Assembly: GCF_001510655.1 (NCBI RefSeq)
Contig: NZ_LMVC01000003.1
Span: 231,847-295,846, forward strand
DNA: 64,000 bases
Direction: 5' to 3'
Source of the DNA: Fictibacillus sp. FJAT-27399
Lineage (GTDB): Bacteria; Bacillota; Bacilli; Bacillales; Fictibacillaceae
Shown here: positions 2,814 through 14,527 of the stretch, one piece after another
How the letters are laid out: each line of letters opens with the position of its first letter
How positions within the stretch are numbered: position 1 is the stretch's first letter
Program-made: the position numbers and the translations under genes
Notes under the pieces: generated by a model
The model's database searches: none
What the model was told of the DNA's origin: nothing
The model's input: only the letters and a program-made list of their open reading frames with translations

Positions 2814-3689
2814 GTGGATCAGGAACTGCATGTATTTGTGACGGTCGTGGAAAAAGCCAACTTTTCGCATGCGGCGGAAGTTTTGCATATCACCCAGCCG
2901 GCGGTGAGCCGTTATATCAAAAACTTAGAGAGTAAAATGAATGCGAAACTGCTTGAACGGAATAACAAGATGGTGCAGATGACGAAGGCTGGAGAAATTG
3001 TCTACCATCATGCCAAGGAAATCCTGTCGCTCTATGAAAAGATGAATGTGCTTGTCGCTGACTTGATGAGCGAGCCGAGCGGGAAGCTGAGCATCGGGGC
3101 GAGTTACACGTTTGGTGAGTATATTCTGCCTCACATCATTGCTACGATCCGTGCGGAGTTCCCGCAGATCAACCCGTCCATCATGATCGGCAACACCCGC
3201 GAAATTGTTCACCAAGTGGCATCCCGGCATATCGATGTGGGAATCATTGAAGGAAAGATGACAGATGAGCACGTGGCGATGGAGCGTTTTTCTGTGGATA
3301 GTCTCGTGGTCGTTGTTTCAGCTGGACATCCGCTGGCTCAGAAGGAAGTGGTTTCGTTTTCTGGTCTTGAGGATGAAACGTGGATCGTACGGGAGCAGGG
3401 ATCCGGAACGCGTGAAGCAACAGAGCAGATGTTTGCTGACCATCGATTTACTCCAGGTTCAGTGATGGAGTTCGGGAGCACGCAGATCATTAAAGAGTCG
3501 GTCGAGGCGGGTCTCGGTGTTTCGTTTCTTTCCACATGGACGATACGGAAGGAGCTTGCTTTAGGAACGCTTAAGGTCCTTGATCTGCCGGGCTTTCCGG
3601 TCCAGCGGCAGTTCACTCTCGTGACACAGGATACGGAATTTCAGACGAAGGCAATGGAAGTGTTTTTGAGGGTTTTGAAGCAGGGGTGA
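2814..3689 (+). CDS. LysR family transcriptional regulator, CysL/YeiE-like
   Basis: 291 residues. The N-terminal winged helix-turn-helix (about residues 1-60) reads FSHAAEVLHITQPAVSRYIK, the classic LysR recognition region. The rest is a periplasmic-binding-protein-like effector domain (about 90-290). The start is GTG at 2814, seven bases after GGAGGGAAAG; no in-frame ATG lies nearby. Its divergent partner is a YeiH-type exporter, and in Bacillus and enterobacteria such pairs belong to the CysL/YeiE group linked to sulfite/sulfur metabolism. That assignment rests on context and general resemblance, so the effector is inferred. The stop is followed within 80 bases by the ribulokinase-like gene, which is probably unrelated in function. 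Confidence 0.88.
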   Translation: MDQELHVFVTVVEKANFSHAAEVLHITQPAVSRYIKNLESKMNAKLLERNNKMVQMTKAGEIVYHHAKEILSLYEKMNVLVADLMSEPSGKLSIGASYTFGEYILPHIIATIRAEFPQINPSIMIGNTREIVHQVASRHIDVGIIEGKMTDEHVAMERFSVDSLVVVVSAGHPLAQKEVVSFSGLEDETWIVREQGSGTREATEQMFADHRFTPGSVMEFGSTQIIKESVEAGLGVSFLSTWTIRKELALGTLKVLDLPGFPVQRQFTLVTQDTEFQTKAMEVFLRVLKQG

Positions 3690-3767
3690 GATTAATTTTT
3701 TGTGCGTTTCCCGAAAAAGTGTAGTACTATTCTACAAAAGAGCGATAGACCAAAGGAGGATGCTGTT

Positions 3768-5465
3768 TTGCAGAAAAAATATGTGATCGGAATTGATTAT
3801 GGAACGGAATCCGGGCGGGTTTTGCTTGTGGATGCTGCTTCCGGAGAAGAAATTGCCACAAGTGTTACCGCTTACAGACATGGTGTGATGGATGAGAAAC
3901 TTCCTGGAGGTACAGCCCTTGAAGCGGACTGGGCCTTGCAGCATCCCGGGGATTATTTTGATGTTCTGCGTGAATCGGTGCCTGCTGTCCTTCAACAGGC
4001 TAAGGTAAGCGCAGAAGATGTTATCGGCCTCGGGATCGATTTTACTGCGTCTACGATTATGCCGCTAACTGCAGAGGGTGAACCGCTCTGCCTGCAGCCA
4101 GACTGGGAAGATAATCCGCACAGCTGGGTCAAGCTATGGAAGCATCATGCCGCACAGCCAGAAGCGGACGAACTCACGAAACTTGCAGAAGAGAGGAACG
4201 AGGGTTTTCTGAAACGATATGGAGGAAAGGCTTCGTCAGAATGGATGTTTCCAAAAATATTGCAGATCTTGAGGGAGGCGCCTGACGTTTTTGAAGAAAC
4301 GGATCTGTTTATGGAAGCGGGTGACTGGGTTACCTCACGGCTTGCCGGAAACATGGTCCGCAGCAGCAACACATGCGGCTATAAAGCCTTTTGGAATAAA
4401 GAAGAGGGTTATCCTTCCGCTGAATTTTTCAGCACGCTCGACACACGCCTTGAAAACATTTTAGATACGAAAATGCGAGGGCCAGTTTTATCCATTGGAG
4501 AAAAAGCGGGAGAACTTACAGAAGAAATGGCAAGGCTTATAGGATTAGAACCCGGGATTGCTGTAGCGGTAGGGATTATTGACGCTCATGCAGGGGTTCC
4601 GGCAGTTGGCGCTGTAAACCCTGGCCAGCTTGTAATGGCGATGGGGACCTCAACTTGCCATATGCTGATTTCTGATGTGGAAGAACCGATTAAAGGTGTG
4701 TGCGGGATTGTAGAAGACGGCATTATTCCAGGCTGCATCAGTTACGAAACCGGGCAGGTTGCTGTTGGTGATTCCTTTGCCTGGTATGTTGACCAGGCTG
4801 TTCCCGATTATGTGAAAAAAGAAGCGGCCGATGCCGGAATGAACGTCCATCAATTACTGGAGAAGAAGGCAGCAGCCTGCAGGCCGGGTCAGTCTGGGCT
4901 TGTTGCACTGGACTGGTGGAATGGCAATCGCTCTGTTCTCGTTGATGCTCATTTGTCCGGGGCGATTGTTGGTCTCACACTGGCAACAAAACCGGAAGAA
5001 ATCTACCGGGCTTTGTTGGAATCAACGGCTTTTGGCACAAAAAAGATCATTGAAAGTTTCGTTGATGCCGGCGTGGCTGTTGATGAAATCTTTGCCGTGG
5101 GCGGACTGCCTGAACGGAATCACCTGTTGATGCAGATCTATGCGGATGTAACGAACCGCGAGATTAAAATCGCCGACTCACGCCAGACGACCGCACTTGG
5201 CGCTGCGATGTATGCGGCAGTAGCGGCAGGGCGTGAGGCAGGAGGCTATGATTCTATTTTTGAAGCAGCTGAGAAGATGGCACGAGTGAAGGAAGAAACA
5301 TTCAAGCCAATTCCTGAAAACGTGAGGAAGTATGAAGAGCTGTACCGCTATTATTTGGAGCTGCATGATTTTTTCGGACAGGAGAAGCGTTCGTTGATGC
5401 ATGGACTGAAGCGGCTGAAGAGTGGAGAGGCAGAAGAAGTGCTGCAAAATGGTGTCCCGCTTTGA
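3768..5465 (+). CDS. araB: L-ribulokinase-like FGGY carbohydrate kinase
   Basis: 565 residues from a TTG start at 3768, placed seven bases after AAAGGAGGA; an upstream GTG at 3702 has no ribosome site and would add 22 residues outside the family. The protein opens with the FGGY ATPase signature [12 protein letters not shown] and carries [11 protein letters not shown], typical of ribulokinase (AraB phosphorylates L-ribulose with ATP). The length equals that of Bacillus AraB (about 560). Neither araA nor araD is nearby, so it is an orphan; another ketopentose or ketotetrose as substrate is conceivable given the tetritol-type island 1.3 kb downstream (inference). The last codons form the left arm of a perfect 18-bp hairpin. 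Confidence 0.82.
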
Positions 5466-5719: not shown

Positions 5720-6706
5720 TTGATCATAAAAGAACGGGCGTACCCGCAATATATAACCGCTTTGGAGGCATTATTGCGGCGAATTCCCCAAAATCATCCT
5801 AAACGGCGGGAAATTGAGCTGGATTATGCCAAAAGGCTGGCCGGTTATCGGGGCGAACAGGCGTTGGACTATCCGCTGGGCTTTTTGCAGGAAAAGGAGT
5901 TCAGCATTTTCCATGATCTTAGGCTTCCTGACCGAAAACGGCACTTTCAACTCGATACTCTCATACTTTCTCAAAGTTTTGCTCTAATTTTGGAGGTGAA
6001 GAACATTGCAGGTACCCTCATTTTTGATGAAGACTTCAGACAATTGATCAGAATTTCCAATGAAAAAGAGGAGGCGTTCGCGGATCCAATCCTTCAAGCT
6101 GAACTGCAAAAAGTACAGCTGCTCTCTTGGTTCTCACAACAAAAGCTGACTGCATTCCCAGTTGAAACCCTGGTTGTCATCAGCCATCCCAAAACAGTAA
6201 TTAAAAACTCTCTTATGAAGCTATCCCCAGAATCCTCAAAAAAAGTAACCCAGAACAAAGACATTCCCTTCAGAATTGCAGCCTTCCAACGCCAATATAC
6301 AAAAGAAATTCCCCAAAAAGAGATGAATAGAATTTCCCGTCAGCTACTCAAAGCCCACAGCCCTTTTACCCCCGACATTCTCTCGCTCTATGAAATTTCG
6401 CCCAATGAAATTCTAAACGGTGTGCACTGTCCAAACTGCAATCACTTACCGATGACAAGGTTTTACGGAAAGTGGTTTTGCACAAGCTGCTCCCATTCTT
6501 CTAAAACGGCTTACCTTCCAGCGCTCAATGATTATGTAGCGCTGTTCGGAAGTACTATAACAAACCGCGAGTTGCGCAACTTTCTTAACATAGCCTCGCC
6601 TTCTATTGCAGCGAAAATCCTCCATTCTATGAATCTCCCATCTTCAGGAGGTTATCGAAACCATTCCTACCATCTAACTTCAGAAAACGAAATAAAACAA
6701 AAATAA
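5720..6706 (+). CDS. NERD domain protein with C-terminal zinc ribbon
   Basis: 328 residues from a TTG start ten bases after AAAGGAGAG. The nuclease-related NERD domain covers roughly residues 35-150, with the core LDTLILSQSFALILEVKN containing the E-x-K of restriction-endonuclease-like folds. A putative zinc ribbon follows near residues 235-260 (CPNC...CTSC). The molecular role of NERD proteins is unsettled; nucleic-acid processing is the usual prediction. Its AT-rich end overlaps one of the operator-like repeats of the downstream island (6684-6696). Its codon use and A-rich 3' half differ from the GC-richer kinase gene before it, consistent with accessory cargo. Confidence 0.8.
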   Translation: MIIKERAYPQYITALEALLRRIPQNHPKRREIELDYAKRLAGYRGEQALDYPLGFLQEKEFSIFHDLRLPDRKRHFQLDTLILSQSFALILEVKNIAGTLIFDEDFRQLIRISNEKEEAFADPILQAELQKVQLLSWFSQQKLTAFPVETLVVISHPKTVIKNSLMKLSPESSKKVTQNKDIPFRIAAFQRQYTKEIPQKEMNRISRQLLKAHSPFTPDILSLYEISPNEILNGVHCPNCNHLPMTRFYGKWFCTSCSHSSKTAYLPALNDYVALFGSTITNRELRNFLNIASPSIAAKILHSMNLPSSGGYRNHSYHLTSENEIKQK

Positions 6707-6727
6707 AATTGACAAAACGAAAGTAAA
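6684..6727 (+). promoter_or_regulatory. Two DeoR-operator-like motifs before the SDR gene
   Basis: AAAACGAAATAAA (6684-6696) and AAAACGAAAGTAAA (6714-6727) are direct copies of a motif that also occurs before the deoR, eltD-like and rpiB-like genes. The second copy fills the spacer between the -35 and -10 elements of the SDR promoter, so a bound protein would block RNA polymerase. Confidence 0.65.
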
Positions 6728-6736
6728 TGATAGAAT
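6709..6736 (+). promoter_or_regulatory. Sigma-A promoter of the SDR gene
   Basis: A perfect TTGACA (6709-6714) is followed after 16 bases by TAGAAT (6731-6736), 33 bases upstream of the chosen ATG. Confidence 0.75.
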
Positions 6737-6768
6737 TCTACATAACTTTTAGTTTAGGGAGGATATGT

Positions 6769-7539
6769 ATGGACTATCAGCAGCTTTTTAGTTTAAAAGG
6801 GAAGACAGCTCTTGTTACAGGCGGAGGAAGAGGATTGGGGAAAGCGATGGCTGAAGCGCTCGCGCAGGCAGGCGCGAACGTAGTGATCGCCGATATGGAC
6901 GAGGGCACGGCAAAGCAGAGTGCTGAAGAACTCAAAGCTCATCAGGTAAAAACGCTAGGTCTTAAACTGGATGTGACCCTAGAGGATGAAGTGAAAAGCT
7001 GTATCAACGAAATTGTAAGCGATTTCGGTGCCATCGATATTCTTGTTAACAACGCGGGAATCTGCCAGAAGATCACGGTGGAAGAACAGAGTTTAGAAGA
7101 TTGGAAGAAAACAATGGACGTGAACGTGAATGGTGTCTTTCTGCTTTCCAAATATGCGGGAAAGGTTATGAAAGAAAATGGAGGAGGCTCGGTTATTAAT
7201 GTTGCTTCCATGTCGAGTTTTATCGCCAACACAGAAGCGCAGTGCGCGTACAATGCTTCAAAAGCGGCAGTAGCCATGATGACAAAGTGTCTTGCCTCTG
7301 AGTGGGCACCTTATAACATCCGGGTGAACGCCATCGCGCCAGGCTATATGAAAACGGAGATGACAAAGCCAATCTTTGCGCCGGGAGGGGAACTCGCGCA
7401 TGTGCTTGATCTTGTACCGATGAAGAGGCTGGGAGAACCGCATGAACTTGGCGGGTTAGCGATCTATTTGGCATCGGACGCTTCCACCTTTGCAACAGGA
7501 TCGACCTTTATTGTCGATGGAGGTTATACCATTTGGTAA
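6769..7539 (+). CDS. SDR family dehydrogenase, candidate D-threitol/sugar-alcohol dehydrogenase
   Basis: 256 residues from ATG 6769, which follows GGGAGGATAT; an upstream in-frame ATG at 6727 overlaps the -10 box and is unlikely. It is a classical short-chain dehydrogenase: NAD(P)-binding TGGGRGLG at residues 17-24, NNAG near 94-97, and catalytic Ser147, Tyr161 and Lys165 (YNASK). The chemistry would be reversible oxidation of a polyol or hydroxy-acid carbonyl. Gluconate 5-dehydrogenase-like enzymes share this layout. Context (zinc polyol dehydrogenase, RpiB, DhaKL) suggests a tetritol such as D-threitol giving D-erythrulose, by analogy with the Mycobacterium smegmatis pathway; this is inferred. 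It ends in a terminator shared with the convergent deoR gene. Confidence 0.8.
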   Translation: MDYQQLFSLKGKTALVTGGGRGLGKAMAEALAQAGANVVIADMDEGTAKQSAEELKAHQVKTLGLKLDVTLEDEVKSCINEIVSDFGAIDILVNNAGICQKITVEEQSLEDWKKTMDVNVNGVFLLSKYAGKVMKENGGGSVINVASMSSFIANTEAQCAYNASKAAVAMMTKCLASEWAPYNIRVNAIAPGYMKTEMTKPIFAPGGELAHVLDLVPMKRLGEPHELGGLAIYLASDASTFATGSTFIVDGGYTIW

Positions 7540-7546
7540 TAAAATA

Positions 7547-7577
7547 AGCAGCCGACATAATTGTGTCAGGCTGCTTT
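7547..7577. terminator. Bidirectional terminator between SDR and deoR genes
   Basis: AGCAGCC-GACA pairs with TGTCA-GGCTGCT (one bulged base) and is followed by TTTTCTTT on the plus strand and an A/T-rich tail on the minus strand. It serves two convergent genes. Confidence 0.75.
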
Positions 7578-7580
7578 TCT

Positions 7581-8354
7581 TTATTCCGTTTCCACCGTTA
7601 TCAATTCAACACCATGCTGCTCGAGAGCGGATTTATCGCTTTCTGCTTCACTGCTGTCCGTAATGATGATGTCAAGGTCATCGAGAGCGGCGAAGGATGC
7701 GATGGAGTTTTTGTGAAATTTGGAGTGATCGAGCAAGGCTACTACTTTCTTGCTTGCCTTTACCATCGCTTTTTTCAGCTCGACTTCATAGACGCTGAAA
7801 TCGGTAAGTCCGGATTTAATGGAGAACCCGTTGGAAGAGGTAAACAGCAGATCAATATTAATCTGGCTTAGAATGTTGACCCCGAGTGTACCTTCTAGGG
7901 AGTGTGATCCCCGTTTTACGATGCCGCCCAATAAAATGACGGTAATGTCCGGATGTTCATTCAGCTCGAGAGCGGTGTTGATTCCGCTGGTAACAACAGT
8001 GAGCCTGATTTGCTTTTCCTTCAAGACACGGGCAAGTTCGAGGGCGGTGGAGCTGGCATCGAGCATGATGCACTGTCCGTTCTCGATCAATGCGGCGGCC
8101 TCTTTGGCAATCACTGACTTTTCGGTTTTGTTTTTCTTTTCACGAATGGAAAAGCTCGTTTCATTGTCATTTGACTCTGCCAAGACAGCTCCGCCATGGG
8201 TTCGTTTCAGCAGTCCCTCTTCTTCCATGCGTGTTAGATCTGTCCGGAGGGTGGCTTCAGATACTTGAATCTCTTGAGCAAGTTCTTTGATGGAGACTCT
8301 CTGGCTTTCATTCAATCTATCAAGTATGGCTTTGCGTCGTTCTGGCACAAACAT
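7581..8354 (-). CDS. DeoR/GlpR family sugar-metabolism repressor
   Basis: 257 residues if started at ATG 8354 (MFVPERRKAILD); a TTG at 8363 better spaced from AGGTGAT is possible, so the start is uncertain. The N-terminal winged helix (about 5-57) includes SIKELAQEIQVSEATLRTDL and the family-typical THGGAVL. The C-terminal DeoRC domain (about 75-235) senses phosphorylated sugars. It lies in the middle of the catabolic island, divergent from the eltD-like gene, and is the obvious owner of the AAAACGAAAATAAA motifs. A copy of the motif (minus strand, about 8391-8405) lies in its own leader, implying autoregulation. The likely inducer is a ketotetrose or aldotetrose phosphate (inference). Confidence 0.88.
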   Translation of the reverse strand: MFVPERRKAILDRLNESQRVSIKELAQEIQVSEATLRTDLTRMEEEGLLKRTHGGAVLAESNDNETSFSIREKKNKTEKSVIAKEAAALIENGQCIMLDASSTALELARVLKEKQIRLTVVTSGINTALELNEHPDITVILLGGIVKRGSHSLEGTLGVNILSQINIDLLFTSSNGFSIKSGLTDFSVYEVELKKAMVKASKKVVALLDHSKFHKNSIASFAALDDLDIIITDSSEAESDKSALEQHGVELITVETE

Positions 8355-8426
8355 TTTTCCCAATAAAATCACCTACAAATCGATTAGTTATGTTTATCGT
8401 TTTGGCTGTTTTACTTTTATTATTCT

Positions 8427-8455
8427 ATTACACCATCTTTCATAAACATTGTAAA
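8427..8455 (-). promoter_or_regulatory. Promoter of the deoR gene
   Basis: On the minus strand TTTACA (8455-8450) is followed after 17 bases by TGTAAT (8432-8427), about 75 bases before the start. An operator-like AAAACGATAAA lies between this promoter and the gene. Confidence 0.55.
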
Positions 8456-8473
8456 TCAATAATAAAACAAAAT

Positions 8474-8570
8474 AAAACGAAAATAAAATATAAAAAAACC
8501 AAAAATTAATTGACTATTCAAACATAAAGGTACTATAATGAACCCAATACCTCGCAATTACGAAAATAAA
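8474..8570 (+). promoter_or_regulatory. Operator copies flanking the eltD-like promoter
   Basis: AAAACGAAAATAAA (8474-8487) lies upstream of the -35 element, and TTACGAAAATAAA (8558-8570), extended by CGATAAA, lies just past the expected start site. Paired sites bracketing a promoter suggest looping or roadblock repression by the adjacent DeoR protein. Confidence 0.6.
8510..8539 (+). promoter_or_regulatory. Promoter of the eltD-like operon
   Basis: TTGACT (8510-8515) is followed after 18 bases by TATAAT (8534-8539). The transcript would carry a leader of about 130 bases containing an operator copy and a cre site. Confidence 0.7.
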
Positions 8571-8630
8571 CGATAAAAAAAGAAAGAATATAAAAACAAA
8601 AAGGAGGAAAGTCAGTTATTTTTTGAGAAA

Positions 8631-8645
8631 ATGAAAGCGTTCTCT
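8631..8645 (+). promoter_or_regulatory. cre site for CcpA catabolite repression
   Basis: ATGAAAGCGTTCTCT matches the Bacillus cre consensus WTGAAARCGYTTWNN at all but one defined position. It lies in the leader between the promoter and the eltD-like start, a position where CcpA typically acts as a roadblock. This supports a secondary carbon source for the operon. Confidence 0.7.
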
Positions 8646-8674
8646 ATAACTATCATACAAAGGGAGAGATATTG

Positions 8675-9790
8675 ATGAGCATGAAGACGGTTGCTGAACA
8701 AGAGACGAAGAATGTGAGTATTCCGAAGACCATGAAGGCGGTTGTAGCATATGCGCCAGGAGATTACCGGTTTGAAACGGTTCCTGTTCCTGAGATCGGA
8801 GAAGGTGAGATTCTTGTAAAAGTGGAAGCGTGCGGAATTTGTGCCGGAGATTTAAAAGCGTTTGACGGTGCACCAAGCTTCTGGGGAGATGAAAAGCAGC
8901 CTGCTTATATTAAAGCTCCAATGATTCCTGGCCATGAATTTATCGGTCATGTAGTAGGTCTTGGTGAAGGGGTAACCGGGTTTGAGCTGGGCGAACGTGT
9001 GATTTCGGAACAGATCGTTCCTTGCTGGGATTGCCGATTTTGTAATCGCGGACAATACTGGATGTGTGAAAAGCATGATCTCTACGGATTTCAGAATAAT
9101 GTAAACGGTGCCATGGCAGAATACATGAAGTTTACGAAGGAAGCCATCAATTATAAAGTGCCTGAGAACCTTCCGATTGAAAAAGCTATCTTGATCGAGC
9201 CATATGCATGTTCTTTCCATGCTGTACAGCGTGCGCAGATTCAGCTTGGAGATGTGGTTGTTCTTGCAGGTGCGGGAACACTCGGTCTTGGGATGATTGG
9301 TGCCATCAAGAAATCAGGCCCTGGGAAACTAATCGTGCTTGACCTTTTCGAAGAGCGTTTAGAGCTTGCCAAAAAATTCGGAGCTGACATGGTGCTCAAC
9401 CCGGCAAAGGATGACGTGAATGCCATTGTCAAAGAATTAACGGACGGTTATGGCTGTGACATTTATATTGAAGCAACAGGCGCACAGAAGTCGGTGGAGC
9501 AAGGACTGACCATGATCCGCAAGCTTGGACGTTTCGTGGAATTCAGCGTATTTAAGGAGCCGGTAACGGTAGACTGGAGCATCATCAGCGATCGCAAAGA
9601 ACTGGATGTGCTTGGTTCCCACCTCGGCCCATACTGCTACGAGCATGTGATTAAAGGAATCTCCAACGGCGACCTTCCGACAGACGGTGTCGTGACGCAT
9701 ACACTGCCGCTGGAAGAATTCGAAAAGGGCTTCCAGCTTGTGAAAAACGGGGCAGAGTCCTTGAAAGTTGTGCTTGATCCGAATCTATAA
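8675..9790 (+). CDS. Zinc-dependent polyol dehydrogenase, EltD-like (erythritol/L-threitol)
   Basis: 371 residues from ATG 8675 after AGGGAGAG; the TTG one codon upstream is less likely. It is a medium-chain dehydrogenase: catalytic-zinc ligands are in C53-G-I-C and PGH87-E88, the structural zinc has C117, C120, C123 and C131, and the cofactor loop is GAGTLGLG. It would oxidise a polyol to a ketose with NAD. The combination with a CsbX/RbtT permease, RpiB and DhaK/DhaL fits erythritol/L-threitol dehydrogenase of the M. smegmatis EltD type; sorbitol or arabitol dehydrogenase is the alternative. It heads a run of six same-strand genes, though hairpins after eltD and an internal promoter before rpiB split the run into subunits. 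Confidence 0.82.
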   Translation: MSMKTVAEQETKNVSIPKTMKAVVAYAPGDYRFETVPVPEIGEGEILVKVEACGICAGDLKAFDGAPSFWGDEKQPAYIKAPMIPGHEFIGHVVGLGEGVTGFELGERVISEQIVPCWDCRFCNRGQYWMCEKHDLYGFQNNVNGAMAEYMKFTKEAINYKVPENLPIEKAILIEPYACSFHAVQRAQIQLGDVVVLAGAGTLGLGMIGAIKKSGPGKLIVLDLFEERLELAKKFGADMVLNPAKDDVNAIVKELTDGYGCDIYIEATGAQKSVEQGLTMIRKLGRFVEFSVFKEPVTVDWSIISDRKELDVLGSHLGPYCYEHVIKGISNGDLPTDGVVTHTLPLEEFEKGFQLVKNGAESLKVVLDPNL

Positions 9791-9796
9791 AAACAA

Positions 9797-9826
9797 TGGC
9801 TGCTGGTTGGAAGCTGGCAGCCTTCT
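9797..9826 (+). terminator. Weak hairpin between eltD-like and permease genes
   Basis: GGCTGC and GCAGCC form a six-pair stem around a 13-base loop, followed by TTCTTATT. The tail is poor, so attenuation or mRNA processing inside the operon is more likely than full termination. Confidence 0.4.
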
Positions 9827-9859
9827 TATTAAAAACCATCAGGCAAAGGAGGAATACAA

Positions 9860-11134
9860 GTGGATCGTCTTTTGGACAGAATCGGAATGGATCGGAAAAT
9901 GGCTCTCGGTTATTTCGGGGTTTTGATTTTTATGATGGGTGATGGCCTTGAGTTAGGCTGGCTTTCTTCTTATTTAACAGACCATGGCCTAACGATGCAG
10001 GAATCCGCTCTTATTTTTAGTGTTTATGGCTTTGCTGTTGCGATAGCAGCGTGGCTGTCAGGTGTCCTGGCCGAAGTGCTCGGACCGAGGAAAGCGATGA
10101 TGCTGGGGCTGACGCTGTTTATAGCTGGTTCGGTAGTTTTCCTGACGTTCGGAATTACGAGCATGAATCTTGCTATTATGCTCCCAACCTATGCTTTACG
10201 GGGACTGGGATATCCGCTTTTCGCCTATTCTTTCCTCGTATGGGTGACTTATTATGCCCCGGCTGACAAGCTTGGAACAGCAGTAGGCTGGTTCTGGTTT
10301 GCTTTCAGCGGCGGATTAAACGTACTTGGCGCGTACTATTCAAGCTTTGCACTGCCGGTGCTGGGTGAAATGAAAACGTTATGGAGCGCACTTGTTTTCG
10401 TACTATTGGGAGCGACTGTTGCAATTTTTCTGAACAAAGACAAAGAACACAAAAAGAAATTTGAAAATAAAGGCGACGCTTTGAGATATCTATTAAAAGG
10501 CGTGACCATCGCATTTGAAAATCCGAAAATCGGCATGGGTGGAATCGTACGGACGATTAACACATCCGCTGCCTACGGTTTTGTAGTCTTCATGCCGGCG
10601 TTCATGATGGATCTTGGGTTTACTCGATCGGAGTGGCTGCAAATCTACGGCTCTCTCTGGACGAGCAACATCATCTTTAACCTTATTTTCGGCATTGTTG
10701 GTGACAAGCTGGGGTGGCGGAACACGGTCATGTGGTTCGGCGGCGTCGGCTGCGCTATTTTTACAGCAGCCTTCTATTATGTACCGCTCGCGGCCGGTCC
10801 TAATTACTTTGTGGCAACAGCAGTAGCTGCCTGCTATGGCGCATGTCTTGCAGGATTCGTACCCTTATCAGCACTAATTCCTTCGCTAGCCCCAGAAAAC
10901 AGGGGTGCAGCGATGTCTATTCTTAACCTTGGAGCAGGACTGAGTACATTCGTCGGTCCGGCAATCGTAGGGGCTTTCATTGGAATGGTAGATACGGTAG
11001 GCATTATTTGGATCTACACAGGCTTGTATCTTGTGAGTGCTGTTCTAATGAAATTTGTAACTCTTTCCAAAGAGGAAGCGGAAGAAGCAGAACGGATCTC
11101 AATAGAGGAATTTAAAACAGCACAAAAGGCATAA
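9860..11134 (+). CDS. RbtT/DalT/CsbX family MFS permease
   Basis: 424 residues from a GTG start seven bases after AAAGGAGG; there is no nearby ATG in frame. Twelve predicted membrane segments are present, with MGDGLELGWLSSYLTDHGLT in the first helix/loop and ALRGLGYPLFAYSFLVW near residues 112-128, both typical of the ribitol/arabitol/CsbX group. It would bring the polyol into the cell by proton symport. It is the second gene of the eltD-like operon and is followed by a clear terminator. The substrate is inferred from context to be a four-carbon polyol; pentitols are the family's known substrates. Confidence 0.83.
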   Translation: MDRLLDRIGMDRKMALGYFGVLIFMMGDGLELGWLSSYLTDHGLTMQESALIFSVYGFAVAIAAWLSGVLAEVLGPRKAMMLGLTLFIAGSVVFLTFGITSMNLAIMLPTYALRGLGYPLFAYSFLVWVTYYAPADKLGTAVGWFWFAFSGGLNVLGAYYSSFALPVLGEMKTLWSALVFVLLGATVAIFLNKDKEHKKKFENKGDALRYLLKGVTIAFENPKIGMGGIVRTINTSAAYGFVVFMPAFMMDLGFTRSEWLQIYGSLWTSNIIFNLIFGIVGDKLGWRNTVMWFGGVGCAIFTAAFYYVPLAAGPNYFVATAVAACYGACLAGFVPLSALIPSLAPENRGAAMSILNLGAGLSTFVGPAIVGAFIGMVDTVGIIWIYTGLYLVSAVLMKFVTLSKEEAEEAERISIEEFKTAQKA

Positions 11135-11162
11135 GAGAGTTTGGAATTTTAAAAAGATGAAA

Positions 11163-11195
11163 AGAACGTCTTTTGCGAGGCGTTCTTCTTTTTAC
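11163..11195 (+). terminator. Terminator after the permease gene
   Basis: AAGAACG and CGTTCTT form a stem around a 12-base loop followed by CTTTTTA. It separates the eltD/permease unit from the rpiB/dhaK/dhaL unit. Confidence 0.7.
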
Positions 11196-11206
11196 CCCAA
11201 AACACA

Positions 11207-11276
11207 AAACGAAAATAAATGAAAATAAATAACAATAAACAATTGACATAAAACGAAATAAATGAAAAAATAAATG
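11207..11276 (+). promoter_or_regulatory. Cluster of DeoR-operator motifs with the rpiB promoter
   Basis: AAAACGAAAATAAA (11207-11220), TGAAAATAAA (11221-11230), AAAACGAAATAAAT (11251-11264) and TGAAAAAATAAAT (11264-11276) surround a perfect TTGACA (11244-11249). The -10 element is weak (AAAAAT at 11267-11272, 17-base spacing). The third copy again fills the promoter spacer, as before the SDR gene. Confidence 0.6.
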
Positions 11277-11339
11277 AAAGAAAACAATAATTAGAAAATT
11301 TCGTTATAAGACTAAAATAGAGAGAAAGGGAGTTGTATA

Positions 11340-11822
11340 ATGAGGATAGGATTGGGTTCTGACCATAATGCCTTTGATATGAAAGAAAGTCTTAAAAGCT
11401 ATATACAAGAGCTGGGCCACGAGGTAGTAGATTACGGCTGCCATTCGTGTTCTGAGGTCGATTATCCGGAAGTGGCGTTTGAGGTAGGAGAAGGAATCAT
11501 TCAAAACAAACTGGACAGAGGAATCCTGTGCTGCGGAACAGGAATCGGAGTGGCGATCGCAGCAGGAAAAGTGCCAGGCATCCGCGCAGCCCTCTGCCAT
11601 GATACGTATTCTGCAGAACGTGCCCAGAAAAGCAACAATGCTCAGGTGCTGACGATGGGATCGAAGGTTATCGGGATTGAGCTCGCCAAACAGGTGGTTA
11701 AAACCTATCTCGAATCTCATTTCTCAGGAGGAAATTCCGGAAGAAAAGTACAGCAGATCACAGATAAAGAACAAGAATTTCTGAAAGGGGATGCCGTTCA
11801 TCATGAAAAAACTTATAAATAA
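11340..11822 (+). CDS. RpiB/LacAB-type sugar-phosphate isomerase
   Basis: 160 residues, the normal size for ribose-5-phosphate isomerase B. It has the SDH motif (residues 7-9), the DYP loop (41-43) and GILCCGTGIG (61-70) with the catalytic cysteine at 64/65. RpiB-family proteins interconvert aldose and ketose phosphates; in tetritol pathways they convert erythrulose-4-phosphate to erythrose-4-phosphate (DerI/EryI-like). That role fits the adjacent DhaK/DhaL genes better than a housekeeping Rpi role. The ATG at 11340 follows AGAAAGGGAG. Its last 20 bases overlap the dhaK start, which implies translational coupling. Confidence 0.85.
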   Translation: MRIGLGSDHNAFDMKESLKSYIQELGHEVVDYGCHSCSEVDYPEVAFEVGEGIIQNKLDRGILCCGTGIGVAIAAGKVPGIRAALCHDTYSAERAQKSNNAQVLTMGSKVIGIELAKQVVKTYLESHFSGGNSGRKVQQITDKEQEFLKGDAVHHEKTYK

Positions 11823-12807
11823 TCCGAATCGTGTTGTAGAAGAAATGATCGATGGTTACGCAAAAGCCCACCCGCAGCATGTCAGAGTGCTGTCAGAAAA
11901 CAGCCGCTCGATCGTAACGGCCCGGGAAACAGCAGAAGGCAAAGTCGGCGTATTAATCGGCGGAGGATCTGGGCATGAACCTGCTTTTATGGGTTATGTC
12001 GGACCAGGAATGGCAGACGGGGTAGCGGTAGGAAACATTTTTGCTTCACCACCACCGGATCCGATTCTGGAAGCGACGAAGGCTATTGATAAAGGGGCAG
12101 GAGTCATTTATGTATACGGCAACTATGCCGGAGATCTGATGAATTTTGGGATGGCGGCTGAACTGGCAGAATTGGAGGCTGACATTCAGGTCGGCAAAGT
12201 TATCGTCACCGATGACGTCGCATCCGCTCCGAAAGAGGAAAAGGAAAAACGAAGAGGGATTGCTGGAGAATTTTTCGTAACAAAGGTGGCCGGTGCGGCT
12301 TCTGAAAAAGGCTACAGCTTAGAGGATGTCGTCAGAGTCGCCAATAAAGCAAACGATCAAACCCGTACGATGGGTGTCGGACTTTCTCCTTGTTCTCTTC
12401 CTCAGACTGGAAAGCCCAGTTTTGAGCTTGAAGAAAATGAGATGGAAATCGGCCTCGGACACCATGGTGAGCCAGGAGTAGAAAAAGGCGATCTGCAGCC
12501 GGCTGATCAGGTAGCAGACCGATTGGTTCAAGATATTCTAGCCGATATGCCATTAGGTGAAGGGGAAAAAGTAGCTGTTCTTGTAAACGGCTTGGGTTCA
12601 ACCACCAAGATGGAACTCTATATCGTTTTCCGCAGAGTGGAACAGATTTTAAATGAAAAAGGGATTCAGATCCACCGTTCTTTTGTAGGCGATTACAGTA
12701 CGTCACTAGAGATGGGCGGCTGTTCGGTCACACTGATCAAGCTTGATGATGAACTTGCAGAATTTGTGGATGCACCGGCAGATTGCCCGATGTATGTTCA
12801 ACGATAA
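11803..12807 (+). CDS. dhaK: Dihydroxyacetone/erythrulose kinase subunit DhaK
   Basis: 334 residues. ATG 11803 (MKKLINNPNRVV) is chosen over ATG 11791, which would abut the AAAGGGG ribosome site. Substrate-binding features are GGGSGHEP with His58, GNYAGDLMNF, and the GHHGEPG loop that carries the histidine forming a hemiaminal with the ketose. The family phosphorylates short ketoses such as dihydroxyacetone or erythrulose. No dhaM phosphotransfer gene follows, so the DhaKL pair probably uses ATP instead of a PTS donor, or borrows a DhaM from elsewhere (inference). The context with RpiB favours D-erythrulose as substrate. Confidence 0.87.
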   Translation: MKKLINNPNRVVEEMIDGYAKAHPQHVRVLSENSRSIVTARETAEGKVGVLIGGGSGHEPAFMGYVGPGMADGVAVGNIFASPPPDPILEATKAIDKGAGVIYVYGNYAGDLMNFGMAAELAELEADIQVGKVIVTDDVASAPKEEKEKRRGIAGEFFVTKVAGAASEKGYSLEDVVRVANKANDQTRTMGVGLSPCSLPQTGKPSFELEENEMEIGLGHHGEPGVEKGDLQPADQVADRLVQDILADMPLGEGEKVAVLVNGLGSTTKMELYIVFRRVEQILNEKGIQIHRSFVGDYSTSLEMGGCSVTLIKLDDELAEFVDAPADCPMYVQR

Positions 12808-12819
12808 GGAGGAGATCAC

Positions 12820-13470
12820 ATGTCATTTACAGCGAAAGAATTGAAAGGCTTTTTACAGAGTGTTGTGGATACAGTCGAGGAAAATAAAGATTACTTATCC
12901 GAGCTTGACCGCAAATTGGGCGACGGAGACCATGGTGTCACGATGTCGATCGGCTGGCAGGCTGTTCAGGAAAAGCTCCAGGGTGAACTGCATGAGGAAG
13001 AAGATTGCGGAAAAATCAGCATCACAGCAGGCCGTACGTTTTTAAGCGCGGTCGGTTCAACGGTCGGCCCTCTTTATGCGACAGGATTTTTGAGAGGCGG
13101 TAAGGAAGTTCAAGGCAAGACCGAACTTTCAGGGGAGGACCTATACAGCTTCTGGACTGCTTTTATTGAAGGAATTAAAGAAAGAGGACAGGCGGAAGTC
13201 GGCGATAAAACGATGGTCGATACTCTTCAGCCGGCTTTGGGTACGCTGAAGCTGGAGTACGAAAAATCCGGGGACTTTACTGGCGCATTCACGAAAGCGG
13301 TTGCTTCGGCAAAAGAAGGCATGGAATCGACGAAAGATCTTCTTTCTAAAAAAGGGCGGTCCAGCCGGCTGGGAGAGCGGTCACTCGGCAACCAGGATCC
13401 GGGCGCCACTTCTTCCTATCTTATCTTATCCGCCTTTGAAAGCGTCGTCACATCTGTACAAACCGTGTAA
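12820..13470 (+). CDS. dhaL: Dihydroxyacetone/erythrulose kinase subunit DhaL
   Basis: 216 residues; ATG after AAGGAGGAGATCAC. This is the nucleotide-binding subunit: the Mg/ATP-binding aspartates lie in LDRKLGDGDHG (Asp30, Asp35, Asp37), and SRLGERSLGNQDPGA near the C terminus is the second conserved loop. It works with DhaK to phosphorylate the ketose. The gene is 12 bases after dhaK and ends in a strong terminator. The split two-gene form differs from the fused DhaK-DhaL kinases described for the mycobacterial tetritol pathway. Confidence 0.87.
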   Translation: MSFTAKELKGFLQSVVDTVEENKDYLSELDRKLGDGDHGVTMSIGWQAVQEKLQGELHEEEDCGKISITAGRTFLSAVGSTVGPLYATGFLRGGKEVQGKTELSGEDLYSFWTAFIEGIKERGQAEVGDKTMVDTLQPALGTLKLEYEKSGDFTGAFTKAVASAKEGMESTKDLLSKKGRSSRLGERSLGNQDPGATSSYLILSAFESVVTSVQTV

Positions 13471-13483
13471 TAGCTATATGCCG

Positions 13484-13529
13484 GAGGGCCGCTGAACTGA
13501 AAACAACCAGGAAGGCGGCCCTCTTTTTC
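13484..13529 (+). terminator. Terminator between dhaL and glpX-like genes
   Basis: GAGGGCCGC pairs with GCGGCCCTC (nine pairs) around a 22-base loop, followed by TTTTTCT. It partly insulates the fructose-bisphosphatase gene. Confidence 0.8.
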
Positions 13530-13561
13530 TATGTCCAAAATCAGAAGAGGAGGGATCGTAC

Positions 13562-14527
13562 ATGAATATGAGCTTGGATAAAAAAGAAGACATTCAGACG
13601 CTGGCGCTGGATTTTCTAGCAGTTGCCCAGCAGGCGGCCATTGCTTCTTACCCGTGGGTCGGCAAGGGAAAGAAAAACGAAGCTGACGGGGCAGGTACAG
13701 AAGCGATGCGTACCCGGATGAACACGATCGGGATGGATGGAACAATCGTTATCGGTGAGGGAGAACTGGATGAGGCACCTATGCTGTATATCGGAGAAAA
13801 GGTTGGTACAGGAGTTGGCCCTGCTGTGGACATTGCGGTCGATCCGGTGGAAGGCACGACCCTTATGTCTAAGGGACAGGACAATTCCTTAACCGTCATT
13901 GCTGTTGCTGAACGCGGCCATTTGCTGCACGCGCCTGATATGTATATGAGGAAAATTGCGGTGGGACCAAAAGCAAAGGGGCGAATTTACATTGAGGCCC
14001 CTTTGACGGAGAATATTTTGGCTGTTGCTGATGCATTGGGTAAAGATGTGAGTGAGGTTACGGTCATGATCCAAGACCGAACCCGCCATCATGATCTTAT
14101 TCAGCAAGTGTTTGAAGCCGGAGCAAAAGTGAAGCTGTTTTCCGATGGAGATGTGACAGGAGCCATAGCTACAGGAATCGATGAGATTGACGTCGATCTG
14201 CTCGTGGGAACTGGGGGAGCGCCAGAGGGAGTAATAGCGGCTGCGGCTTTGCGAAGCCTGGGCGGTGATTTTCAGGCACAGCTGGTCTGCCAAAATGATG
14301 AAGAGTTTAATCGCTGTGTGACGATGGGATTGAGCGATCCGGGTAAAATCCTAAGAATGGATGATCTTGTGAAAAGTGACAGCTGTTTCTTTGTCGCGGC
14401 GGGCATCACGGACGGCATCCTCCTGGACGGTGTCCGCAAGAAGGAAGGCGGGACTATGCTTACCCACTCGTTCATCACCATCGGAGGGAAAGGAAACTAT
14501 TTTCAATTTATCGAGACTCGCCACTGA
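13562..14527 (+). CDS. glpX: Class II fructose-1,6-bisphosphatase, GlpX family
   Basis: 321 residues, matching GlpX enzymes. Metal-binding motifs are GEGELDEAPML (about 62-72) and the DPVEGTT loop (about 98-104); GAPEGV lies near 220. It hydrolyses fructose 1,6-bisphosphate (or sedoheptulose bisphosphate) to the monophosphate. Bacillaceae normally have a housekeeping glpX elsewhere, so this is likely a pathway-linked paralogue. Erythrose-4-phosphate entering the non-oxidative pentose pathway needs fructose-6-phosphate as partner, which would explain its presence (inference). ATG 13562 follows AGGAGGGATCGTAC. The stop codon lies inside a terminator hairpin. Confidence 0.88.
   Translation: MNMSLDKKEDIQTLALDFLAVAQQAAIASYPWVGKGKKNEADGAGTEAMRTRMNTIGMDGTIVIGEGELDEAPMLYIGEKVGTGVGPAVDIAVDPVEGTTLMSKGQDNSLTVIAVAERGHLLHAPDMYMRKIAVGPKAKGRIYIEAPLTENILAVADALGKDVSEVTVMIQDRTRHHDLIQQVFEAGAKVKLFSDGDVTGAIATGIDEIDVDLLVGTGGAPEGVIAAAALRSLGGDFQAQLVCQNDEEFNRCVTMGLSDPGKILRMDDLVKSDSCFFVAAGITDGILLDGVRKKEGGTMLTHSFITIGGKGNYFQFIETRH

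Follow-up and report, generated by a model that had tools for sequence, protein, structure and literature searches.

A candidate operon for four-carbon sugar alcohols in Fictibacillus, with a serine-type RpiB isomerase and a GlpX of the methanol-plasmid clade

Eight genes in one cluster

The window analysed here is a 64,000-nucleotide stretch of the Fictibacillus sp. FJAT-27399 genome (contig NZ_LMVC01000003.1, positions 231,847 to 295,846; the genome comprises 4.5 Mb in 13 contigs, with an estimated completeness of 100%). It contains eight adjacent genes, coding for a short-chain dehydrogenase/reductase (SDR), a DeoR regulator, an EltD-like zinc dehydrogenase, a polyol permease, RpiB, DhaK, DhaL and GlpX, which from their sequences probably form an inducible, catabolite-repressed operon for the use of four-carbon sugar alcohols (tetritols).

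The SDR gene (6769–7539, plus strand; Pfam adh_short_C2) encodes a candidate second polyol or D-threitol dehydrogenase, and beside it on the minus strand lies the gene of a DeoR/GlpR-family regulator (7581–8372, with a possible start at 8354; HTH_DeoR plus DeoRC), the presumed repressor of the cluster. All the remaining genes are on the plus strand. They encode the zinc polyol dehydrogenase (8675–9790; ADH_N plus ADH_zinc_N), predicted to convert erythritol into D-erythrulose; the permease, a major facilitator superfamily (MFS) protein of the RbtT/DalT/CsbX family (9860–11134; TIGR00897, 557 bits against a cut-off of 375); the RpiB-family isomerase (11340–11822), a predicted D-erythrulose-4-phosphate isomerase in which Ser98 replaces the ring-opening His; the DhaK subunit (11803–12807; Dak1), a predicted D-erythrulose kinase; the nucleotide-binding DhaL subunit (12820–13470; Dak2, and over the TIGR02365 cut-off); and a class II bisphosphatase, GlpX (13562–14527; over the TIGR00330 cut-off), a predicted sedoheptulose-bisphosphatase (SBPase) or fructose-bisphosphatase of the Bacillus methanolicus GlpX(P) clade. 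The rpiB and dhaK genes overlap by 20 bases, which suggests that their translation is coupled. An earlier note on this DNA, made from the letters alone, had placed all eight genes in these families and at or near these coordinates, and our analysis agrees with it. The note had also proposed tetritol/erythrulose catabolism as the function of the island, a proposal to which the RpiB serine, the conserved linkage and the GlpX clade described below now lend support.

The cluster core recurs in other Bacillota

To compare gene content, named genomes were scanned with a four-sequence DhaK alignment (the DhaK motif discussed below was among the two peptide patterns of that scan), and the best 80 of 526 confirmed places were kept. 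The 37 Bacillota loci consist of 36 from the scan (including L088, L109, L114 and L118) plus L042, which had contributed to the query; their genes were identified by BLAST, with the window genes, the L042 neighbours and the genes of the methanol plasmid pBM19 as references, and were counted at any position in loci of up to 21 kb. The whole gene order is retained in three loci of the same species or genus (L035, L036 and L037), and the cluster core recurs in other Bacillota, from which it is clear that the arrangement is not due to chance. Order and content are also retained in genome G014 (L038), with a different SDR.

RpiB is present in 28 of the 37 loci. These 28 loci also contain DeoR (27), the zinc dehydrogenase (23), GlpX (20), the permease (19), an SDR of any kind (17), transketolase (Tkt, 16), an AraB-like kinase at any identity (7), TalC (6), a second triosephosphate isomerase (TIM, 3), Fba (2) and Pfk (1), and DhaM was found in none of them. 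In the nine loci lacking RpiB, neither GlpX nor Tkt was found, and DhaM was found in two. Five of the 37 loci have the full run dehydrogenase–permease–RpiB–DhaK–DhaL–GlpX–Tkt, and five more have all of it except Tkt. A RibB-like gene (dihydroxybutanone phosphate synthase, judged by eye) lies near DhaK in L042 (11685–12317), and also in L053 and L075–L077.

Window-type GlpX (at least 85% identical) is patchily distributed, being present in 4 of 7 genomes of the genus, the window's own included. A class-wide draw gave 8 of 398 genomes with GlpX at the chosen threshold. Besides the window's own, three have the gene in operons of this kind (L213, L215 and L216), and in one it lies beside RpiB, TalC and Tkt without DhaK (L214). 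Another carries it on a plasmid resembling that of B. methanolicus (L212), and in the last two its setting is housekeeping-like (L217 and L218). In L214 (8600–17000, genome G339), a Ser-type RpiB, TalC, Tkt and a GlpX closely similar to that of the window form a single run with no DhaK nearby; next to it is a gene (MTIKFGC start) similar to one in L066 and, judged by eye, possibly EryC-like.

A serine in place of the ring-opening histidine

A residue that bears on the substrate is Ser98 of the window RpiB, which aligns with His in the structure 3HE8 and in the housekeeping RpiBs from the same genomes, where all 12 copies have His at this ring-opening position. In ordinary RpiB, this conserved His opens the ribose ring, and the E. 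coli H99N change (His99) cuts kcat 26-fold (PMC4783025). In the first RpiB set, 12 of the 13 non-housekeeping copies have Ser, and the thirteenth (L152), with His, is on a contig away from the operon. All 23 further operon loci have Ser as well, giving 35 of 35 operon copies (an extra L062 fragment row in this further set covers another part of the protein, and in L214 DhaK is not close by). Since furanose ring closure is impossible for a four-carbon ketose 4-phosphate, the loss of the ring-opening His fits such a substrate.

The same serine marks the isomerases already assigned to erythrulose phosphate: it is found in all seven members over the NCBIfam D-erythrulose-4-phosphate isomerase cut-off, while the five copies below it comprise one with Ser and four with His. 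It is likewise found in 5IFZ and 3QD5, the nearest solved kin of the erythrulose-phosphate-type isomerase, the latter being presumably the Coccidioides immitis RpiB. Those who solved the C. immitis structure suspected that the substrate has a shorter chain (PMC3212906). The comparison with DerI drawn in the earlier note thus gains a residue-level basis, and the His-to-Ser change may serve as a single-residue marker that separates four-carbon from five-carbon phosphate isomerases, which may be useful in a family that databases label as ribose-5-phosphate isomerase. In the literature searched, with most subscription papers outside its scope, we found no such His/Ser marker for erythrulose-phosphate isomerases.

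A bisphosphatase akin to that of the methanol plasmid

The window GlpX is 68% identical to the pBM19 GlpX, compared with 54% to the second GlpX of its own genome, which is encoded on another contig; it is thus a paralogue, as the earlier note had it. In the second GlpX tree (40 rows), the housekeeping GlpX proteins form one clade (100/99), apart from a window-type clade of 17 rows (100/99) that includes both methanol-plasmid copies, with a Neobacillus operon copy as the nearest row (93/81). The next branches outward from the methanol-plasmid copies are operon copies again (94/93 and 92/85). This tree excludes L011 (which duplicates L042), L029 (for its long branch), L059 (for its short reading), the pair L069 and L167, and 10 very similar housekeeping rows; six rows were added.

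In B. methanolicus, it is GlpX(P), not the chromosomal copy, that is the SBPase, and sedoheptulose bisphosphate is made by either Fba enzyme of this species (PMC3905653, PMC7092467). Membership of the GlpX(P) clade makes sedoheptulose-bisphosphatase the likelier job of the window enzyme. The added fructose-bisphosphatase of the earlier note is therefore upheld as a GlpX in the cluster, with a probable change of substrate. Outside Brucella, bacterial SBPase has been traced to the Calvin cycle and to methanol use (PMC11005471); the present operon suggests that it is also a built-in part of polyol breakdown.

For the transketolase, identity between the pBM19 TktP and the Neobacillus cucumis operon Tkt (L055) is 87%, and TktP groups with five operon Tkts (100/100); between TktP and TktC, the chromosomal enzyme of B. 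methanolicus, it is 76% (PMC3905653). Overall, Tkt does not separate operon copies from other copies (the tree was made without L046, whose Tkt spans two reading frames in the contig). Approximately unbiased (AU) tests did not reject trees with the methanol-plasmid genes outside the sampled operon genes (p 0.314 for GlpX, 0.0947 for Tkt and 0.423 for the two joined), so that nesting of the plasmid genes inside the operon genes is not proven. With the GlpX outgroups being operon genes as well, parsimony favours transfer from operon to plasmid, an outcome that a wider sample could change.

We thus put forward, tentatively and as something short of probable, that the pBM19 glpX-P and tkt-P were taken from tetritol operons, where they would have pulled erythrose-4-phosphate into the pentose phosphate pathway. 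The sedoheptulose-bisphosphatase variant of plasmid-borne methylotrophy in B. methanolicus would then have been put together in part from a tetritol operon, and such operons could be where some components of natural methylotrophy, a target of engineering in E. coli, came from. The literature search gave no tetritol origin of the pBM19 genes. Likeness of Fba was also considered as a sign of pBM19 origin and was rejected, the Fba of L218, in a housekeeping-like gene order, giving 79% against 76 and 71% for operon Fba. In Metabacillus bambusae (L050), a PfkA with 78% identity to the pBM19 enzyme and TalC come after the operon, an arrangement close to the methanol-plasmid gene set.

Kinase, dehydrogenases and the likely stereoisomer

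The window DhaK keeps His58, Asp111 and His221, aligned with His56, Asp109 and His218 of E. coli DhaK, which we take to be the catalytic residues there. Against the TIGR02363 equivalog model it scores 404.4 bits, just under the cut-off of 406.25. As the earlier note had observed, DhaK and DhaL are separate subunits with no DhaM in the cluster; the only DhaM match in the genome is part of another DhaKLM set, which shares the contig with the cluster but lies about 180 kb from it. No DhaM match was found in genomes G014, which has this operon, and G029, which has a related one, and this argues for ATP as the phosphate donor there. The DhaK loop reads YGNYAGD in the window, compared with KNYTGD or KNYSGD in the three DhaM-linked rows.

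The zinc dehydrogenase was earlier called EltD-like, a description in keeping with its 57% identity to a plasmid protein annotated as erythritol/L-threitol dehydrogenase. EltD converts erythritol to D-erythrulose and L-threitol to L-erythrulose, as implied by PMC10733421. An L-erythrulose route needs a TIM-type L-erythrulose-1-phosphate isomerase, and no LerI-type second TIM was found in the window genome, whose one TIM gene is on a contig other than that of the cluster. Among 11 genomes, a second TIM is present in two, G029 and G040, in operons whose DhaK is only 52–53% identical. In L042 and L078, a second TIM-family isomerase lies beside more distant DhaKL, RpiB, GlpX, Tkt and TalC, and these loci are candidates for L-erythrulose/L-threitol use.

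Without an L-erythrulose isomerase, the window operon is expected to be confined to D-erythrulose. The earlier suggestion that two dehydrogenases imply the use of several stereoisomers is thus unsupported, given also that the SDR falls below the GolD/DthD cut-off and that an SDR occurs in only 17 of the 28 RpiB-bearing loci. The SDR also stays below the cut-off of the NCBIfam gluconate 5-dehydrogenase model (268 bits against 279). The best substrate candidates would be erythritol and perhaps D-threitol.

Operator-like and cre-like sites

Repeats of the AAAACGAAANTAAA type with up to two mismatches occur 15 times in the window, compared with 6.1 expected, and none of 100 shuffles reached 15. 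Nine of the 15, including all three perfect copies, fall between genes of the cluster, in its three intergenic regions, and several are spaced 10 bases apart. One group lies upstream of the SDR gene (6684–6727, with starts at 6684, 6694 and 6714), one upstream of the zinc dehydrogenase gene (8464–8570, with the perfect copy at 8474–8487) and one upstream of rpiB (11206–11263), each with one perfect copy. In the 4.5-Mb genome, the perfect pattern occurs five times, three of them in the cluster, and the reversed pattern twice; the remaining two perfect operator-type sites are in L170 and L171, on contigs C1 and C6 of the same genome. With a looser pattern, 12 of the 22 regions upstream of rpiB in relatives have similar sites (0.76 expected); none was found upstream of rpiB in L044 and L045, the nearest relatives. 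The DeoR protein would be the one to bind these repeats.

A cre-like site for CcpA (TGAAAGCGTTCTCT, one mismatch) lies at 8632–8645 on the plus strand, in front of the zinc dehydrogenase gene. The cre site claimed in the earlier note is thus present, and its backing comes from the relatives, not from the window count: the window has 11 one-mismatch sites against 6.84 expected, a number reached by 8 of 100 shuffles and weak when taken alone, while a shortened cre pattern has sites in 14 of 21 dehydrogenase upstream regions of relatives (0.17 expected). For both counts in relatives, letter shuffles served as the control and regions shorter than 90 bases were left out.

A predicted pathway and its rivals

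Putting together the gene identities, the conserved linkage, the repeated operator-like sites and the residue and tree evidence, we propose the following route, in which the substrates, the ATP donor, the direction of flux, the inducer and the action of both regulators are predictions. The permease would import erythritol and perhaps D-threitol, and the zinc enzyme, perhaps with the SDR, would oxidise the tetritol to D-erythrulose. DhaK and DhaL would then form D-erythrulose-4-phosphate, with ATP rather than the phosphotransferase system (PTS) as donor, and RpiB would isomerise it to D-erythrose-4-phosphate. Fba, encoded outside the operon, could condense erythrose-4-phosphate with dihydroxyacetone phosphate to sedoheptulose-1,7-bisphosphate, and the operon GlpX would hydrolyse this to sedoheptulose-7-phosphate, making entry into the pentose phosphate pathway irreversible. 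By our reckoning, the SBPase route would turn three erythrose-4-phosphate and one triose phosphate into two fructose-6-phosphate and one triose phosphate. The DeoR protein would repress three promoters until released by some intermediate, and CcpA would act at the cre site.

An exit of this kind has a precedent in Brucella, whose growth on erythritol requires either a transaldolase route or an Fba/SBPase route (PMC11005471), and which does not grow on erythritol when both Fba and transaldolase are lacking (PMC11508834). The presence of GlpX in 20 of the 28 Bacillota loci, and of transaldolase on two enterobacterial plasmids described below, would correspond to the same two alternatives.

Several observations weigh against the tetritol operon so described. 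The window RpiB passes the ribose-5-phosphate isomerase B model (TIGR01120, 151.6 bits, cut-off 138.65) and stays well under the D-erythrulose-4-phosphate isomerase model (156 bits against 240), whose name suggests Rhizobiales. The E. coli RpiB may itself have erythrulose-4-phosphate activity (PMC10733421), which makes the serine a marker and not a requirement. GlpX is missing from 8 of the 28 RpiB-bearing loci; the operon GlpX of L078 sides with the housekeeping clade in the second tree, and those of L069 and L167 stand apart from all other rows in the first, so that GlpX probably entered such operons more than once. The Brucella GlpX, moreover, prefers fructose bisphosphate (PMC11005471). 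No DhaK was seen in the 21 kb read around the gene of the protein annotated as erythritol/L-threitol dehydrogenase, the SDR scores 238 bits against the cut-off of 286 for the GolD/DthD subfamily (NF005309), and the permease belongs to a family named for pentitols, with an AraB-type kinase gene nearby. As regards the donor, the operon DhaL could in principle work with the DhaM encoded elsewhere in the genome. The GNYAGD motif occurs in 28 of 29 RpiB-linked DhaK rows, but 60 of the 67 rows without a link to RpiB or DhaM have it as well, and the DhaM-linked rows number only three; it was therefore rejected as a mark of the pathway, and the loop says only that the window DhaK is not of the DhaM-linked type.

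The AraB-type kinase bears on a pentitol island, in which the permease and dehydrogenases would make a pentulose from ribitol or arabitol for an AraB-type kinase, with RpiB and GlpX serving the pentose phosphate pathway. A LysR regulator and an AraB-type ribulokinase are indeed loosely linked neighbours of the cluster (2814–5465, plus strand; the kinase, over the cut-off of the NCBIfam ribulokinase model, at 3702–5465, just upstream of the cluster), and AraB homologues of 61–80% identity lie near the cluster in L044, L045, L052 and L069, at differing positions; the kinase may add a pentulose branch. The RbtT/DalT/CsbX family of the permease also speaks for a pentitol island. An AraB-like kinase is, however, found in only 7 of the 28 RpiB-bearing loci, and the window repeat scan found no operator repeats upstream of the window's own. 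A pentulose kinase would also leave DhaKL without a role, and the RpiB lacks the His kept in all the housekeeping copies, so that we consider a pentitol island unlikely. The same enzyme logic applied to another short ketose, such as L-erythrulose taken up directly or the branched sugar apulose, also strikes us as rather improbable. DhaK-family enzymes vary in their ketose, and DhaK-family apulose kinases exist. A DhaK/isomerase link for L-erythrulose is reported in PMC5992420, after Barbier 2014. L-erythrulose, however, needs the second TIM-type isomerase that was not found in the genome. Apulose phosphate, for its part, would not yield erythrose-4-phosphate via RpiB.

Plain use of glycerol or dihydroxyacetone, with GlpX for gluconeogenesis, would suit DhaKL and GlpX by family, yet DhaKLM and a second GlpX are already available elsewhere in the genome, and the RpiB, the EltD-like enzyme and the RpiB/Tkt linkage would be left unexplained; we regard this use as very improbable. 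Hardly any weight falls on a dihydroxyacetone/formaldehyde cycle of the xylulose-monophosphate type, where transketolase would make dihydroxyacetone, DhaKL would phosphorylate it, and Fba/GlpX and RpiB would regenerate the acceptor. Although DhaKL, GlpX, Tkt, RpiB, TalC and Fba are found together in sister loci, and GlpX and Tkt resemble the methanol-plasmid ones, no dihydroxyacetone synthase activity was seen (PMC3905653) with the pBM19 TktP, so close to the L055 operon Tkt. Tkt is absent from the window operon, the RpiB there lacks the ring-opening His, and a polyol permease would be out of place in such a cycle.

Taken together, the evidence favours an operon for tetritols that leads through D-erythrulose, and this gives tetritol catabolism a concrete and testable home in Bacillota. 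The literature search returned no description of this Bacillota operon or of its GlpX.

Comparison with described systems

A tetritol pathway with EltD, DthD, DerK/LerK and DerI/LerI was reportedly worked out in M. smegmatis by Huang and colleagues in 2015, and the earlier note had taken it as the parallel. The likeness would lie in the entry steps: oxidation, phosphorylation by a DhaK-family kinase and isomerisation by an RpiB-family enzyme to erythrose-4-phosphate follow one another there, and would do so in the predicted route. An EltD-like dehydrogenase may be shared too, going by the annotated plasmid protein (57%). The window differs in its separate DhaK and DhaL, the lack of a LerI-type TIM, its MFS permease, its DeoR regulator and the GlpX in the operon, joined by Tkt in 16 of the 28 related loci.

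For the exit, the closer likeness would be to Brucella (EryABCHI). There, too, the last isomerase is of the RpiB family, and the Ser recurs in 5IFZ, the nearest solved kin of an NF051858 isomerase; erythrose-4-phosphate is drained either by transaldolase or by Fba with an SBPase (PMC11005471). Brucella differs in phosphorylating first, by EryA (PMC5992420), and in having Fbp and Bbp as its SBPases instead of an operon-encoded GlpX (PMC11005471). No Brucella-type EryA kinase or EryB dehydrogenase was found among the eight cluster genes, to which this search was confined.

The ribulose monophosphate cassette of pBM19 in B. methanolicus (glpX, fba, tkt, pfk, rpe and mdh) shares the GlpX clade and, through the N. 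cucumis operon, the close TktP relative, whereas no DhaKL, permease or RpiB is annotated on the plasmid, and its purpose is methanol, not polyol, use. The enterobacterial plasmids Klebsiella pCAV1042-183 and Salmonella p28NP1 have a dehydrogenase 79–80% identical to that of the window, an MFS transporter, DhaK, DhaL and a Ser-type RpiB. They differ in having a transaldolase (plus a transketolase on the Klebsiella one) and, over the stretches read, in lacking GlpX. Their regulator is of a sugar-binding type where the window has DeoR, and their DhaK is only about 49% identical. A dehydrogenase of this 79–80% identity was seen on seven plasmid records from Klebsiella, Raoultella, E. coli and Salmonella, and the two loci read are L165 and L168 (NZ_CP018670.1, CP152066.1).

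The pathway logic is thus already known, and it is the combination that is new. The nearest described logic appears to be a hybrid, in which an entry like that of M. smegmatis would be joined to the Fba/SBPase exit of Brucella.

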